DNA from: Thermoplasmata archaeon
GTDB taxonomy: Archaea; Thermoplasmatota; Thermoplasmata; Lutacidiplasmatales; UBA184
Assembly (NCBI GenBank): GCA_030041175.1
Contig: JASHOK010000016.1
Coordinates: 1-37,264 of the forward strand
Direction: 5' to 3'
DNA length: 37,264 nt
The translations under genes and the position numbers were made by a program. This document shows, one piece after another, positions 26,522 through 35,108 of this stretch; positions within the stretch are counted from its first letter, which is position 1, and each line of letters begins with the position of its first letter. The notes beneath the pieces are model-generated. The model made no database searches and had not been told where the DNA came from. It saw only the letters and a list, made by a program, of their open reading frames with translations.

Positions 26522-26683
26522 ATGCCGGAATCAAAAACCGAGGCCATCCCGCTGGCCGTCCTAGGGGTACTAGGGCGCGTCGAGCATGAGGCCGACACGC
26601 CGCTCGCCTACATCCCACGGGTGCCGGGCAGCTCTTCGTACCGTGACCTTCTCGAACGCGCGGTCGGATGGTCGCGCCGATGA
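26522..26683 (+). CDS. Small hypothetical protein, 53 aa
   Basis: A short open frame with an ATG, a well-spaced GGAGG and an upstream TATA-like box. The protein begins MPESKTEAIPLAVLGVLGRV and ends with a helical, basic segment, DLLERAVGWSRR. It has no cysteine, signal peptide or clear membrane helix. The stop TGA overlaps the ATG of the next small gene (ATGA), a pattern repeated by real gene pairs all over this window. The function is unknown. A toxin-antitoxin or small regulatory pair is possible, but nothing in the sequence proves it. Confidence 0.55.
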   Translation: MPESKTEAIPLAVLGVLGRVEHEADTPLAYIPRVPGSSSYRDLLERAVGWSRR

Positions 26684-26889
26684 GCGCGATCTCCGCGTCC
26701 GAAACGCTGCGGGCGCCCACCGTGGAGCCGCCGCGAAAGTTCCTGGGCTCCGGGACCCCTCGCGGCTATGGACTGCGCCCCCGCCTGACGCCGGACGCAG
26801 CGGCGGCGTTCGCCACGTTCGTGGATGCCGCGCGAACCCGAGCCGGCCTGGAAGGCCGGACCCTCGTCTACACCGTTCGCTGGGGCTAG
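26680..26889 (+). CDS. Small hypothetical protein, 69 aa
   Basis: The second member of the overlapping small-gene pair. The N-terminal 30 residues are Pro/Gly-rich. Residues 40-58 form a helix (TPDAAAAFATFVDAARTRAG), and the C-terminus is a strand ending TLVYTVRWG. The ATG at 26680 overlaps the stop of the 53-aa gene (ATGA), so this start is preferred over the ATG at 26668. The stop TAG (26887-26889) shares a CTAG palindrome with the convergent RNase HI gene. No family is recognised. Confidence 0.55.
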   Translation: MSAISASETLRAPTVEPPRKFLGSGTPRGYGLRPRLTPDAAAAFATFVDAARTRAGLEGRTLVYTVRWG

Positions 26890-29139: not shown

Positions 29140-29883
29140 ATGGCGCCAAAACCTGCCCAGGGCCGCCGACGCCCGGCGTCTCAGGGTCGCCGACGACCCC
29201 CGTCGCTGCCGGCGCAGTTCCGCCCGCCATTCGCCGTCTACCGGCTTCGGATCCAGCTGCTGCCGACCGCCATCGCCACCCAGCTTTCGGTGGCGCACCC
29301 CGAGATCCGAATTCAGATCGAGAACCGCATGGAAGTGGGTCCGGGCGACCTGCTCCTCGAGGGACGGATCTTTGGCCCGGACGCCGGCGTCAAGGCACCG
29401 GAGTGGGAGACCGAAGTGGGCGCGGCGCCGGAGACCTCGGAGGTGGACCTGCGACCGGAAGGCCGGGATGTCGTCCACTTCCGGTTCACCCAGCGGGTCC
29501 CTCCGCTGCACGAGGTCGTTCGGCGACATCGGCTGCTCACCCGGTACCCGCTCGTTATCCAAAACGGCGTCATGCGTTTCGAGACGGTGGCCACCGCGCC
29601 CCAGATCCGCGCCGTAGTGGCCGAGCTCCGGCAGCGGATCGGGGAGACGGAAGTGGAGGCCATTCGGCACGGTCGGGTGACCCTGGGAAGCCTGGGACTT
29701 GGCCCGGCTCAGGAAACTGTCTTCCGGGCGGCGATGAACGGGGGGTATTTCGACCTGCCACGCGGAACCTCCGTCACGGGACTGGCGGAACAGCTCGGTC
29801 TCAGCAAGTCGGCGGTCTCGGAGACGCTGACCCGCATTGAGAAGCGGTTAGCCGAGGCGGCGCTCCAACTCTCCCTCGTTTAG
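29140..29883 (+). CDS. HTH_10 (bacterio-opsin activator/Bat-type) transcriptional regulator, 247 aa
   Basis: The C-terminal 50 residues are a clear archaeal HTH_10 DNA-binding domain: GLGPAQETVFRAAMNGGYFD, PRGTSVTGLAEQLG, then LSKSAVSETLTRIEKRL. The preceding part (about residues 30-190) is an alpha/beta sensor-like region (FAVYRLRIQLLPTAIATQL and later IQNGVMRFETVATAPQIRAV), as is usual for Bat-family regulators with a family-specific N-terminal domain. The basic first 28 residues may be disordered. Its targets and signal are unknown; the neighbouring cyclophilin and the peptide-modification locus are candidates by position only. ATG 29140 is used. A perfect hairpin follows the stop codon. 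Confidence 0.88.
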   Translation: MAPKPAQGRRRPASQGRRRPPSLPAQFRPPFAVYRLRIQLLPTAIATQLSVAHPEIRIQIENRMEVGPGDLLLEGRIFGPDAGVKAPEWETEVGAAPETSEVDLRPEGRDVVHFRFTQRVPPLHEVVRRHRLLTRYPLVIQNGVMRFETVATAPQIRAVVAELRQRIGETEVEAIRHGRVTLGSLGLGPAQETVFRAAMNGGYFDLPRGTSVTGLAEQLGLSKSAVSETLTRIEKRLAEAALQLSLV

Positions 29884-29887
29884 TCCG

Positions 29888-29905
29888 GGGAGGCTTCAGC
29901 CTCCC
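29888..29905 (+). terminator. Hairpin after the HTH_10 gene
   Basis: GGGAGGC and GCCTCCC form a perfect 7-bp stem around a TTCA loop, starting 4 nt after the regulator's stop codon. No T-tract follows, so it may act as an mRNA 3' end stabiliser or terminator; the role is inferred from position. Confidence 0.5.
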
Positions 29906-30035
29906 ACCCAGGGCTCAAACCCCGCCGATCCGTCCCGGACGGCAGCCGGGCCGTCCCCAAAAGGACTAATAGCTCCAAAGACACGTATCTGGTGCGCCGC
30001 AGTACGGATGAATGCGGACGCGAGGAACACGAACC

Positions 30036-30119
30036 ATGGTTGCAAAGGCAAAGCGAATCCGGGTCAAGGCGCGGCCGGTTGCTCGACTCCCCAACATGCC
30101 CTCGCCCTGCCGGAAGTAG
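30036..30119 (+). CDS. Candidate precursor/small basic peptide, 27 aa
   Basis: This short frame has the best translation signal in the gap: GAGG lies 10 nt before its ATG. The peptide is very basic (four Lys and five Arg in the first 17 residues) and ends PNMPSPCRK with a single Cys. Its length is close to precursor peptides of E1-dependent peptide natural products such as pantocin (about 30 aa), and it sits 102 nt upstream of the RRE-E1 gene. It has no Asn or Glu at the end to mirror microcin C or pantocin chemistry, so any modification would be different. This is a weak call. Confidence 0.3.
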   Translation: MVAKAKRIRVKARPVARLPNMPSPCRK

Positions 30120-30147
30120 GCAGAACCCCTTCCCAGTCCCAGTGCTG

Positions 30148-30184
30148 GCCGACCCGTAGGGGTCGGCTAGCCTAGCCCGAGTTT
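30148..30184 (+). terminator. Hairpin plus T-run terminator-like element
   Basis: GCCGACCC and GGGTCGGC form a perfect 8-bp stem with a GTAG loop (30148-30167), followed 13 nt later by TTTT (30181-30184), one of the few T-runs in this GC-rich region. A TATA-like TATTCTAT (about 30201-30208) for the E1-like gene follows immediately, so the element probably separates two transcription units. Confidence 0.5.
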
Positions 30185-30221
30185 TCCCACTGCTAGCCAG
30201 TATTCTATCCAGGGGCGACTC

Positions 30222-31397
30222 TTGGGACGCCGTGAGTCCGTGACCCCGGCCCCGCTCCCGCTGCCCGAGCGGCCCCGAACGAAAGCCTCGCTGAGCCCCT
30301 TTCGGACCCCGGCCGGCCTCATCCTGTTTAGCCGGGATATCTACGGCCTCGGTCGGCAGATCCAGGACGACGAACACGGCACTCTCTGGCGCATGCTGGG
30401 CCTCCTCGACGGCACCCGGTCGGTCGCCGACATCATCGGCCTGCTCCGGGAACAGGACCCCGAGCTGCTTCCGGCCGAAGTGCGTCGGGCCATCCGCCGG
30501 CTCCAGCGTCTCGGAATCATCGAGGACGCCGCTCTGCCGCCTCCGGGGGAGTTCTCTGCCGAAGAGCTCGACCGGTATTCCCGGAATCTGGACTTCTTCT
30601 CCATCGCCACCCTGGGGACCCCTCGCACCACGTTCGAGCTACAAACTCGCCTTCGCGAGTCCCGGGTGACGATCGTCGGGGTAGGCGGGGTTGGCTCGGC
30701 CACCGCTCTGGGCCTCGCGGCGGCCGGGGTGGGCCATCTCCGGCTTGTCGACTCGGACCGCGTGGAGGTTTCGAACCTGAACCGTCAACTGATGTTCGGC
30801 ACTCGAGATGTGGGCCGACTCAAGGTCGAGGTCGCCGCCGAGAAGCTCCGCGACCTGAACCCGTATGTCACGGTAGTGACCGAGACCCATCGGGTGACGA
30901 ACGCAGACGCGTTGACCCCCTTCGTCCGCGACAACGACCTGTTCATCCTAGGTGCCGACCAGCCGCACGAGATCCTGCTCTGGACCAACGACGTCGCCTA
31001 CCGGGAGCGTATTCCGTGGCTCGAGAACAGCTACAACGGCCCCCGATGCGCTATCGCCCTGTTTGTGCCGGGACGGACCCCGTGTCTGCGCTGTCTGCAG
31101 CACCACCAGGAGGAGGCTCTGCGGCGGCGGAACGTCGCGGTCGGAGAGGAGCTGTTCCCGGCGACCACCGCCAACCCCGTTCTCGCCCCCACCGCCGGGG
31201 TGGCGGGTCACTGGGGGGCCCTGCAGTCGCTCTACTTCCTCGCCGGGCTGCCCGCGGCCTCCGAGGGGCGGATGCTGCACCTGAACCTCTGGAAGGCGAG
31301 CGATGTCCGGGTCGTAGCTCCGCCGTTCTGGCCGGAGTGCCCGACCTGCGGCGGGTCGGCCTCCGACCCAGGGGGTCGTCCGGCGATGGAATCATAA
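30222..31397 (+). CDS. E1-like ThiF/MccB-family adenylating enzyme with probable N-terminal RRE domain, 391 aa
   Basis: The C-terminal part (about residues 115-380) is an E1-like adenylation domain. It has RYSRNL with the arginine finger, the nucleotide loop GVGGVGS (153-159), LVDSD, the catalytic NLNRQ (185-189), Lys201, and two zinc CxxC pairs (Cys288/291 and Cys373/376). No catalytic Cys is evident in the crossover loop, as in MccB. Residues 28-105 (LILFSRDIYGLGRQIQ, then a three-helix winged-helix region) look like a PqqD/RRE leader-peptide-binding domain. The RYxRNxxFF...LQxRL spacing resembles peptide-modifying E1 enzymes (MccB, PaaA, TOMM ThiF partners). The start is TTG 30222, or GTG 30240. 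The MFS exporter follows after 24 nt. Confidence 0.82.
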   Translation: MGRRESVTPAPLPLPERPRTKASLSPFRTPAGLILFSRDIYGLGRQIQDDEHGTLWRMLGLLDGTRSVADIIGLLREQDPELLPAEVRRAIRRLQRLGIIEDAALPPPGEFSAEELDRYSRNLDFFSIATLGTPRTTFELQTRLRESRVTIVGVGGVGSATALGLAAAGVGHLRLVDSDRVEVSNLNRQLMFGTRDVGRLKVEVAAEKLRDLNPYVTVVTETHRVTNADALTPFVRDNDLFILGADQPHEILLWTNDVAYRERIPWLENSYNGPRCAIALFVPGRTPCLRCLQHHQEEALRRRNVAVGEELFPATTANPVLAPTAGVAGHWGALQSLYFLAGLPAASEGRMLHLNLWKASDVRVVAPPFWPECPTCGGSASDPGGRPAMES

Positions 31398-31421
31398 CCC
31401 TCGAACGTCGGTAACTTCCCA

Positions 31422-32819
31422 GTGGCCTCCTCGGTGCGACCGGGCGCGAGCACAGAGGCGGAAGCGTGGCTTCGCCGCAAGCTCGTTTCGAACCGGAACT
31501 ACTGGCCGTACTGGGCCGGGAACGTCGCGAGCTGGGGGGGCCTCGGTCTCGCGGACGTCCTGCTGCTGTTTCTGGTCTACACCGACACGGGTTCCGCGCT
31601 GGCCGTTGCCTACGTCGGGATCGCCGCGTCGATCCCGGTCGTGGCCATCGGTCTGCCGGTCGGGGTCCTGGTAGACCGGGTGGACCGCCGGGCACTGCTC
31701 ATCATCACCGGCTTCTTGCAGGCGGGGATCCTGGCCATCGTCCCGATCTCCCTCGCGCTCGTGGGCTTCCAGCTCGACGTGGTCCTGGCCCTCGTGTTCC
31801 TGCTGGAGACGGCGACCGCAATCTTCCGGCCGTCGGCCACCTCGATCCTCCCCAGCCTGGTCTCCTCGGCCACGCTGGACGATGCCAACGGCTTGCTGCA
31901 AGCGTCGACGGCCGTGGCCTCGACCGTGGGCGCGGCGGCGGCCCCGATCCTGCTGGCGGCCGGCGGTGTCTACGCCTCCTTCGCGTTCTGCGGGGTCGTA
32001 TTCCTCCTCTCGGGCTTCGTCATGACCCGCATCCATAGTCCGGTCACCGGCGCTCTGACCCATCCATCGGGCCGCAGCCGCCTGTCGGTCCTCAGTGACC
32101 TCCGCGCCGCCTTTCAGTACCTCTTCGCCCACCGGGCGCTGCTCGAGCTGACGCTCGTGTCCGTGGCCCTCGGGTTCTTCCTCGCGCTGTCGACGCCGTT
32201 CCTGGTCGTCTACACGGTCCAGGTGCTTGCGGTGCCCGCCGCCGCCTTCGGATATCTGGTGGCCGGCTTCAGCGGGGGATTCCTGATCGGCTCGGTCTCC
32301 ATGGGCCGCCTGGGGATCGTCCGAAGATTCGGGTGGACGCTGATCGCGACCCTCTGCACGGGGGGCGCTCTCTACGGCATCCTGGCCCTCGTTCCGATGT
32401 TTGACGTGGCCGGAGTCGCCCTGGTGACACTGGGGCTGATGTTCGGCCTGATCACCACGGCGTTCTTTTCGCTGGTGCAGCGGATCGTTCCGGCCGGCCT
32501 CCTCGGACGGTACCTGAGCATCGACGAGACGATCGGGCTAGCCATGACCCCGGTCGGCATCCTGGCCGGCGGGCTCCTGACGGACTTCTATGGGGTCCGG
32601 CTGGCGTTCGGGGTGGCCGCCGTTGGACTGGCGGCAACCGGGGTCATCGCCTACTTCCTCCAGGACCTTCGCGCCCTCCACTTCGACGCCCCCCCCGAGC
32701 CAATCGCAGTGCCGCGGACGGCACTGCTCGGTACGCGAGCCGATGAACTGCCGGCGGAACTACCGACCGGCGAGACGGTCCCGCAGCCGCCGCCAGTCCG
32801 GGACGAGGTCTGGCCGTAG
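31422..32819 (+). CDS. MFS exporter, EntS/MefA/MccC-like, 465 aa
   Basis: A 12-helix MFS efflux protein of the MFS_3 type. The start pattern NRNYWPYWAGNVASWGGLGL and the loop-2 motif GVLVDRVDRRALLI match EntS, macrolide pumps and the microcin C exporter MccC. A PTS/PSA segment (IFRPSATSILPSLV) after helix 4 is also typical. It lies 24 nt downstream of the RRE-E1 gene, so it is the likely exporter of whatever that enzyme makes, or a self-resistance pump. The last 45 residues form a soluble, Pro-rich tail, the end of which is read antisense by the convergent STAND gene (60-nt overlap). The start is GTG 31422. Confidence 0.88.
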   Translation: MASSVRPGASTEAEAWLRRKLVSNRNYWPYWAGNVASWGGLGLADVLLLFLVYTDTGSALAVAYVGIAASIPVVAIGLPVGVLVDRVDRRALLIITGFLQAGILAIVPISLALVGFQLDVVLALVFLLETATAIFRPSATSILPSLVSSATLDDANGLLQASTAVASTVGAAAAPILLAAGGVYASFAFCGVVFLLSGFVMTRIHSPVTGALTHPSGRSRLSVLSDLRAAFQYLFAHRALLELTLVSVALGFFLALSTPFLVVYTVQVLAVPAAAFGYLVAGFSGGFLIGSVSMGRLGIVRRFGWTLIATLCTGGALYGILALVPMFDVAGVALVTLGLMFGLITTAFFSLVQRIVPAGLLGRYLSIDETIGLAMTPVGILAGGLLTDFYGVRLAFGVAAVGLAATGVIAYFLQDLRALHFDAPPEPIAVPRTALLGTRADELPAELPTGETVPQPPPVRDEVWP

Positions 32820-35108
32820 ACGCTCGAATTCGCGCTCGCGCATGCTTTCCAGACCGCGGGCGGCCTTGTCCCGGTGGCCCCGGGCGAACTGGAGCTCGGC
32901 TTCCCGAAGGTCGACCTCGAGCTCATCCGCCGCCAGCCGCTGCCGGGCGAAGATCCGACGAGCCGCCCCAAACGCTTCGAGGGCCGCCGGCTCGTCGCCG
33001 CGCTGGAGCGCCAGGCGGCCCTCGGTGAGGAATGACCGTGCCTGTCCGAGCGAGTCTCCGAGCTGGCCGAACTGCGCCATCGCGACGCGGTTCCGCGCCT
33101 CGGCTTCCTCGACACGACCGTGCTCGAGCTCCAGGTCCGCGAGGTTGAGACACGCCCACGCCATGCGGCGGAGGTCGTGCGCCGCTTCGCTGAATCCGAA
33201 GGCCCGCTGGAGGGCGCTCCGGGCTTCCTCGGTCTGGCCCTGCGCATTCAGAATGGCGCCCAGACAGATGAGTCCAAACGCCGCCTCGGCGCGATCGCCG
33301 ACCTCGACCAGCCTGTCGATCGCGGCACGGAACCCGGCGACCGCATCCTCTTCCCGACCCGGAATCATCGAGAGGGCCGTCGACCTTCGGATCGACTCGG
33401 CCGCGGCCTCCCGCGCGTCCCCGGCATCCAGGGCCAGATGCAGCGCCTCGTCGTGGGCGGCCAGTGCCTCGGTATAGTTGCCGCGGTAGTACAGGATCTC
33501 GCCCCGGAGCCGAAGCGTAGCGATCCGCAAGGCAACGGAAGCCCCCGAGGGGCCCTTGGCCGGCAACTCCCGAAAGACCTGTTCCGCTTCCTCCCAGCGC
33601 CCTTCCTCCGCGAACAGGCGGGCCCGGAGGAGCGAGTAGAGGGAACGATCGGTCGCGCGCGCCGCCGACCAAAGCCGGCGGTCCGCGCGGAATTCTTTGA
33701 GCAGCGCGTCGGCCGCCTCGAGCTCTCCGGCCCGGGTGCGCTGGACCGCGAGCTCGAGCCGGATTCCGATTTCGGCGGCGACGTCGTCGGGGTCGCTCCG
33801 GTGCAGGGCCTCTTGGGCGTGCTCCAGGTACGAGATGGCCACCATGGGCTGGAACGAACCGGCCGCATATTCCGCGGCCTGTCGGTTGTACTGGACCGCC
33901 GAGTCGAGTCCGCCCAGGAACGTGTGACGGGCCAAAGCGTAGACCGTCTCCATCTCCCGGGGAGAGCTCTGCTCGAGCGCGGCCGCGACGCGACGATGAA
34001 GGTTGCGGACGGTCGGCTCGCTGAGCTCCGTGAAGAGACGCTGTCGCAGGGCCTCCTGGTTGAAGGCGAACCGGTCCCATTCCAGCTCCCTCAGGATTCC
34101 GAGGCGGACGAGCCGTTCGAGTCCCTCGACCACCTTTTCCTCTTCGCCGCCGACCGCGGCCGCGACGACATCGAACGAGAACTCGTTCCCCGCCACGACG
34201 GCGAGGTTCAGGAGCCGACGATCCGCCGTATCCAGGTGCTCGAGCGCATCGGCGCGGTCCGTCCCCGGGGCCTCCGTGGCCTCGGGTACGGCGTCCGCAA
34301 CCGGTGGCGGATGGACGAGACGTTCCACGAACATCGGCAACCCGCCCGTTTCCGAGTAGAGCCGACGAACATCGGCCTCGCGGAACCGCCGCTGGGGCTC
34401 GAGCCAGCGAAGGAATTCCCCCATCTCCTCTTCCGACAGCGCCCGGAGGCGGAGACGCTCGACGTCCGGCAGATGCAACAGGGCATCGAGGGGACCGGCG
34501 GCCGGTCGGGGTTCCGCAGAGTCCAGGGTGCCGAGGATCCAGATCGGTTGCCCGGCGATCCGGGGCACCAGATCCTGGAGGAGTCCTATCGAAGCGTCGT
34601 CGGCCCGGTGCAGGTCGTCGAGCGCGAGCAGCACGGGGCCCTTCCGCGCGGCGGCGAAGAAGGGTTCTGCGAGCTCGGCCCCGAGACGTTGACGGTCCGA
34701 CTCCAGCTCCGCACGAGCCCCGTCGGCTGCCGTTCGGATCGCCTGACCGGAGAGGCTCGAGTCTTCGGCGCGCACTAGCCCCGGTAGGAGCCCCAGCGGA
34801 GGCCCCACCGAGGGCTCCCGCAGCGGCGGGGACGTGTCTCGTTCCAGGTCCGGGGACACCGCGTCGCGGATCAGCGAGAACGGAGGCGGGTTCTCTTCCG
34901 CGGCCCGTGCCCGGAAGACCCGAAAGCCCGCGGACCTCGAGTCCTCGAGTAGCTGGCCGAGGAAGGTGGACTTTCCAACCCCGATCGGACCGTCGAGGAT
35001 CGTCGTGCCCCCGGCGCCCGACCGCGCCCGTTCCCGTCGGAAGACGAGCGCCTCCCAGGTGTCGGGCCGGCCAATCCGGGGCCGGGACCGCTCCATCGAA
35101 GCCGCCAC
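32760..35108 (-). CDS. STAND-type AAA ATPase with TPR-like repeats (MalT/LAL-like, no HTH), 782 aa
   Basis: The N-terminus has a P-loop GPIGVGKST (residues 40-48) and a Walker B with sensor LLALDDLHRADD (about 155-166), in the arrangement of MalT/AfsR/LuxR-LAL signal ATPases. A winged-helix-like segment (about 290-360) follows. From about residue 385 to the end are TPR-type helical repeats rich in AxxxxxxALxLA patterns (for example YTEALAAHDEALHLALDAGD). Unlike LAL regulators it has no C-terminal DNA-binding HTH, so any output is through protein contacts. The start is GTG 35108 (ATG 35096 also possible); TTAAATACG on this strand about 27 nt upstream fits a leaderless mRNA. Its 3' end overlaps the exporter gene by 60 nt. 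Confidence 0.88.
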   Translation of the reverse strand: MAASMERSRPRIGRPDTWEALVFRRERARSGAGGTTILDGPIGVGKSTFLGQLLEDSRSAGFRVFRARAAEENPPPFSLIRDAVSPDLERDTSPPLREPSVGPPLGLLPGLVRAEDSSLSGQAIRTAADGARAELESDRQRLGAELAEPFFAAARKGPVLLALDDLHRADDASIGLLQDLVPRIAGQPIWILGTLDSAEPRPAAGPLDALLHLPDVERLRLRALSEEEMGEFLRWLEPQRRFREADVRRLYSETGGLPMFVERLVHPPPVADAVPEATEAPGTDRADALEHLDTADRRLLNLAVVAGNEFSFDVVAAAVGGEEEKVVEGLERLVRLGILRELEWDRFAFNQEALRQRLFTELSEPTVRNLHRRVAAALEQSSPREMETVYALARHTFLGGLDSAVQYNRQAAEYAAGSFQPMVAISYLEHAQEALHRSDPDDVAAEIGIRLELAVQRTRAGELEAADALLKEFRADRRLWSAARATDRSLYSLLRARLFAEEGRWEEAEQVFRELPAKGPSGASVALRIATLRLRGEILYYRGNYTEALAAHDEALHLALDAGDAREAAAESIRRSTALSMIPGREEDAVAGFRAAIDRLVEVGDRAEAAFGLICLGAILNAQGQTEEARSALQRAFGFSEAAHDLRRMAWACLNLADLELEHGRVEEAEARNRVAMAQFGQLGDSLGQARSFLTEGRLALQRGDEPAALEAFGAARRIFARQRLAADELEVDLREAELQFARGHRDKAARGLESMREREFERLRPDLVPDWRRLRDRLAGR

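Follow-up and report, generated by a model that had tools for sequence, protein, structure and literature searches.

The window analysed here is a stretch of 37,264 nucleotides from a Thermoplasmata archaeon, in which a short peptide ORF, a gene for an E1 (ThiF-like) enzyme, a gene for an exporter of the MFS type and a convergent ATPase gene follow one another. The features of this locus are listed below with their positions in the window.

29966..29972, forward strand: TATA-like element CTAATAG, 70 nt 5' of the precursor start codon
30036..30119, forward strand: candidate precursor peptide gene, 27 aa, MVAKAKRIRVKARPVARLPNMPSPCRK, its frame kept 5' of E1 in 8 genomes
30144..30171, forward strand: 12-bp hairpin GCTGGCCGACCC-GTAG-GGGTCGGCTAGC, between the precursor and E1 genes
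30240..31397, forward strand: RRE-E1 (ThiF-like), putative peptide-activating enzyme, 385 aa, GTG start (Pfam ThiF 1.2e-49)
30264..30530, forward strand: predicted RRE (PqqD-like, PaaA-like N-terminal) domain of E1, from a profile match and the EEEHHH topology of an AF2 model
31422..32819, forward strand: MFS exporter (EntS/MFS_3-like), 465 aa (MFS_1 2.8e-23, MFS_3 2.8e-21)
32760..35108, reverse strand: STAND-type ATPase with TPR (AAA_16 and MalT-like TPR), convergent (AAA_16 1e-13, TPR_MalT 1.5e-13)

The E1 and MFS genes lie where a sequence-only reading of this DNA had placed them, and the fourth gene, 32760-35108 on the reverse strand, was absent from that reading. The best start of E1 is the GTG at 30240, the orthologues beginning at a GTG near the same place; a TTG further 5', at 30222, is unneeded. 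G024 carries the same gene block as the window. The Bat-type HTH_10 gene at 29140-29883 was discarded as a cassette member: G000 and G024 are the only genomes in which it neighbours E1, and the corresponding gap of G023 lacks it. Its presence here may reflect a local addition, or it may be a regulator. No leader-removing protease was found in the cassette. Further upstream in the window, a 73-aa ORF at 26668-26889 has copies in G020 and G022 that are 85-86% identical, and is therefore probably a genuine conserved small protein gene.

An ORF of 27-31 codons is found 5' of E1 in 8/8 genomes of the family that carry this type of E1. It is because of this conservation next to E1 that the 27-residue peptide gene of the window was identified. 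Besides MVAKAKRIRVKARPVARLPNMPSPCRK in the window, the encoded peptides are MVAKAKRIRVKARPIARLPNMPSPCRK (G024), MTEKPKRIRIKARLLPRNAVPKPGIPSPCRM (G023), MNNKREIRVRVEPLTHAKTSPLATPCRK (G048), MNTRQKVRIRVKRLSKAQTRAVPTPVRR (G059), MRTNQAIRIRVQPLTRAKTSPLATPYRK (G054), MSTKQNAGIRLQPLTKAQTRPVPTPVRR (G052) and MNTKENVRIRVEPLTKGQTKPVPSPVRR (G060). All eight end in the pattern [S/T]P-x-R-[K/R/M] and are conserved up to the stop, with a Ser or Thr five residues from the C-terminus in each and a Cys three residues from it in half of them; none of the eight ends in Asn (the last residue is K, R or M) or contains a Glu-Glu pair. For seven less-related loci, the joint ORF score is 426, compared to 95.7 +/- 10.1 (maximum 125) in 300 dinucleotide shuffles. 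Since shuffles ignore common descent, the reading-frame test matters: in genus g7, DNA identity is 59-76% inside the ORF but 23-52% in the 60-base flanks on either side, and between the precursor ORFs of the window and G024, six of the seven changed codons are synonymous. No credible match to the precursor peptides was obtained in Pfam or NCBIfam, and a six-frame search of 103 genomes with two peptides as query gave E < 0.001 only at E1 loci. The co-conservation of locus and short ORF in relatives, which had been proposed as a check, is borne out. Several short ORFs had been pointed out before E1; the one at 30036-30119 is the part of that claim that stands, its frame alone being conserved, while the ORFs at 29992-30159 and 30008-30175 and a longer version starting at 30012 were rejected. 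Because the tails of the window-type precursors vary little, variability cannot separate leader from core. With good confidence, as part of the RiPP reading of the whole locus, the ORF at 30036-30119 is taken as the candidate substrate precursor of E1.

In terms of non-coding elements, TATA-like AT-rich stretches, recognised by a loose pattern, precede the precursor ATG by 59-72 nt in 7/8 loci, and the one at 29966..29972 may act as a promoter. Between the window and G024, the stretch from this element to the ATG (29966-30035) is 97% identical and the gap 3' of the precursor only 63-68%; in other loci, 5' leader RNAs with small GC-rich hairpins are seen. The RNA fold of 30120-30239 is moderately better than that of shuffled sequences (z = -2.36), and hairpins are predicted in the precursor-E1 gap of the other seven loci too. 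Rfam detected no known RNA in 29860-30260, and a scan with the bacterial terminator consensus found no terminator. In bacteria, mccA and mccB are separated by a terminator (PMC6495379), which the precursor-E1 hairpin resembles and whose role it may, by analogy, share.

Sister loci in which a related RRE-E1 (34-41% identical) is accompanied by an M50-like membrane protein, either replacing the MFS pump or joining it, were found in actinobacteria and in the Thermoplasmata family f6 (L044-L047, L054-L056), the M50 matches being weak (best 4.5e-5, below the cut-off). Most of them encode a leader [I/V]x[I/V]RxLxKxET akin to the I-R-V-x-P-L-T-K-A-x-T of the window family. In G007, E1 is followed by the M50-like protein and an MFS protein, with a ...VVQFRKLERIETS...-type peptide beyond, and the actinobacterial pairs of E1 and M50-like protein (L044-L047) have short ...IRxLxKxETT... 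peptides upstream or downstream. In G249, from another Thermoplasmata family, three tandem precursors, an RRE-E1 and an M50-like membrane protein are encoded at L054 (7421-7952 and 8042-10472), a second archaeal E1-type RiPP architecture; the precursors, placed before the RRE-E1, share the identical leader MAKKIAISIRPAEKWETT and have the tails FYITEMPFDAK, IFITNMNGVDVK and YYITPLIEDCK. The leader pattern revealed no precursor near L055, L056 and L048, and no description of the actinobacterial or family f6 loci with E1 and M50-like protein was found in the open PubMed Central literature. In combination, the common leader motif, the differing tails and the RRE are as expected of a leader-dependent enzyme.

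As for the RRE itself, a profile of 15 E1 N-terminal domains matched best, among PDB entries, the RRE of PaaA (5ff5; residues 7-90, E=1.6e-8), followed by designed PPR repeat proteins (summed short repeats) and then by a zinc-regulator winged helix; LynD, PbtF and PqqD were weak matches. Several members of the E1 family match Pfam PqqD or PaaA-like_N, and a single-sequence search with the window E1 alone gave no Pfam RRE match above the cut-off. Modelled in isolation with AF2, the N-terminal domain shows three strands then three helices, in the order of an RRE (pLDDT 75), while the full-length E1 with a three-sequence alignment reached a pLDDT of 41. Foldseek with the AF2 model of the domain returned nothing significant, its matches being insignificant winged helices. 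Since profile and topology agree and Foldseek brings no confirmation, the fold is assigned from sequence and topology only; on these grounds the earlier proposal of an N-terminal RRE/PqqD-like domain in E1 is supported.

An alternative reading is that the short ORF serves to regulate the E1-MFS operon, as an attenuator or a leader peptide, and does not encode a substrate of E1. Its location 110-150 nt 5' of E1, with hairpins after it, would suit such a device, as would the TATA-to-ATG stretch, which in the two closest genomes is conserved to the same degree as the ORF. However, conservation at the amino-acid level that extends through the C-terminus to the stop while the flanks are near random identity, the related leaders at the sister E1 loci, three of them in tandem with differing tails as substrates have, and the peptide-binding RRE borne by E1 all argue against it, and the attenuator is thus improbable.

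The ThiF domain of E1 has MccB (4.8e-47) and PaaA (7.8e-43) as its nearest PDB profiles. Its adenylation residues R182, K195 and D240 are present in 16/16 sequences. They are spaced by 13 and 45 residues (in one sequence 46 instead of 45), which equals the spacing of R167, K180 and D225 in EnfB (PMC12250964). Four cysteines, at 282/285/367/370, form the presumed zinc site, a CPLH variant of which occurs in one member. At the position of the ThiF/MoeB catalytic Cys, a by-eye comparison shows TANPVLAPT in the window enzyme versus SCAEGGVLG in a MoeB-like paralogue of the same genome. The sequence-only reading, which had described complete adenylation and zinc motifs without a catalytic Cys, was therefore right on this point. 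Away from that position, Cys 270 is a feature peculiar to the eight MFS-type E1s, the M50-type relatives lacking it.

With MccB as nearest solved enzyme, an MFS exporter next to E1 as in mcc loci, and a hairpin setting precursor and E1 genes apart like the one that parts mccA from mccB, E1 could be thought to join AMP or CMP to the peptide C-terminus via an N-P bond. Microcin C (MccA/MccB/MccC) indeed shares with the window a short precursor, an RRE-E1 without thioester Cys, an MFS exporter and the hairpin. Further differences are a precursor that exceeds MccA in length and has K/R/M as its last residue, the archaeal host and the additional STAND ATPase gene. The MccB reaction proceeds through a C-terminal Asn (PMC12250964), in which 0/8 precursors end, and a scan of nine proteins encoded around the locus in the window revealed nothing MccD-, MccE- or MccF-like. 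A peptide-nucleotide of the microcin C kind is therefore quite improbable, and the microcin C or pantocin chemistry suggested earlier is unsupported, since neither a C-terminal Asn nor Glu-Glu is found in the precursors; for the same reason the product is probably neither McC- nor pantocin-like, and an AMP- or CMP-linked peptide is one option, which is not favoured.

Finally, it is extremely unlikely that E1 activates a sulfur carrier or SAMP, like MoeB/ThiF/UbaA, and that its N-terminal domain is incidental: the MoeB/ThiF/UbaA models do match the ThiF domain, every one below its cut-off, but the catalytic Cys is missing, no sulfur-carrier gene (ThiS/MoaD/SAMP), the neighbour named earlier as evidence against a peptide-modifying role, was seen beside E1 (by Pfam in the window, by ORF translations only at the other loci), another E1 of the housekeeping kind, which carries the catalytic-Cys motif and adjoins a MoaD-like stretch, is encoded separately in this genome, and the tree sets all RRE-E1s apart from housekeeping MoeB-like E1s with a support of 1.0.

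In the same tree, the E1s of the eight cassettes group together as a single clade (0.91), divided by genus, while MccB sits on a long branch where its position is unreliable. This E1 type is present in 8/103 family genomes with at least 427 bits, and a ninth genome, G007, holds a more distant one. Among the 103 genomes, the best eight MFS homologues (277-965 bits) fall in exactly the eight E1 genomes, and so do the best eight ATPase homologues (534-1669 bits). Both genes adjoin E1 except in G023 and G048; there they are neighbours on a different contig from E1, the arrangement expected if the assembly broke within the cassette. The STAND ATPase/TPR gene at 32760-35108 is the fourth cassette member, co-distributed with E1 and MFS. 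The EntS model matches the MFS protein below the model cut-off. AAA_16/TPR proteins are expanded in this archaeal family, with five strong matches in the window genome; what links the ATPase to the cassette is therefore that the copies there score highest, and the function of such proteins extends past the cassette. Assignment to a TOMM cluster through the ATPase was rejected, its match to TOMM_kin_cyc being weak (76 bits versus a cut-off of 706). On its left side, the cassette is bordered in genus g1 by genes for RNase H-like and membrane proteins and a cyclophilin, and G020 and G022 have the same left block without cassette genes beside it; the surroundings differ among the genomes of genus g7. 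Gain or loss of the whole cassette in one piece is therefore probable.

Taken together, the sequence data make it quite likely that the locus is an archaeal RRE-ThiF RiPP cassette, by which a peptide would be made, modified and exported. ThiF-like RiPP enzymes adenylate a carboxylate, after which the nucleophile differs (PMC12250964; PMC12150305), leading to a thiolactone (GrcB), an imide or amide (EnfB), an indolylamide (IndF) or an N-P bond (MccB) (PMC12250964; PMC12150305). By analogy, the C-terminal carboxylate of the precursor would most likely be adenylated and then caught by a side chain. As in other members of the family, the RRE is expected to bind the 27-aa precursor via its basic, beta-strand-prone leader K-R-I-R-V, the ThiF domain with ATP to adenylate the peptide C-terminus with no thioester Cys involved, and the MFS protein to export the product. 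The simplest nucleophile to capture the activated C-terminus would be the conserved Ser/Thr of S/T-P-x-R-K/R/M, which might, at a guess, yield a small ring with loss of 18 Da. The guess of a lactone is made because this residue is fifth from the end in 8/8 precursors and Asn and Glu-Glu are missing; the lactone ring itself is a tentative proposal, possible but doubtful. The STAND ATPase/TPR protein would, as a guess too, probably sense the product or protect the producer, the product being conceivable as either a signal or a weapon. It is rather unlikely that the cassette is a RiPP pheromone system, in which a small C-terminally cyclised archaeal peptide of a new class would be an extracellular signal read by the STAND ATPase.

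Thus, the peptide, adenylating enzyme and pump that the earlier reading had recognised together in an archaeon are upheld as a trio. In the open literature, the mining and characterisation of ThiF-type RiPPs is confined to bacteria: the sole global survey of RRE-ThiF drew on bacterial RefSeq (PMC12150305), a 2025 survey of archaeal RiPPs covers YcaO, radical-SAM, lanthipeptide and lasso types with no mention of a ThiF or adenylating enzyme (PMC12144867), and no earlier report of an archaeal ThiF-type RiPP was found in open PubMed Central literature. The kind of system is known; within the reach of the searches, which covered other archaeal phyla by one contig scan, its archaeal variant and this family of peptides are new. 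An archaeal system with a small precursor that can be synthesised, one enzyme and one pump makes the chemistry testable by a single in vitro assay. Natural substrate panels are provided by the varied C-termini of the eight peptides and by the three precursors encoded at L054.

Compared with known systems, the locus shares with RRE-ThiF RiPPs a ThiF domain with R/K/D, an N-terminal RRE (by sequence profile), an adjoining conserved precursor and a transporter, and ATP-dependent modification of the peptide would be expected. A TOMM/YcaO system with an ocin-ThiF was rejected, TIGR03882 scoring 23.0 bits versus a cut-off of 36.9 and no YcaO being found among the scanned neighbours. Pantocin A (PaaP/PaaA) offers the nearest solved RRE and a similar E1 domain, but its Glu-Glu substrate pair is missing from the window-family precursors. 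The IndF/GrcB/EnfB macrocyclases of Firmicutes likewise combine an RRE-ThiF enzyme with a small precursor modified at its C-terminus and a transporter, whereas their precursor tails (NWYFI, WWIVI, Glu-Cys) differ from those of the cassette (SPCRK, TPVRR, TPYRK), which is also without M16 peptidase and radical SAM enzyme. Besides the shared R/K/D spacing, the leader motif (V/I)RKA of EnfA recalls the I-R-V-K-A of the window peptide, an apparent resemblance between the bacterial and archaeal leaders.
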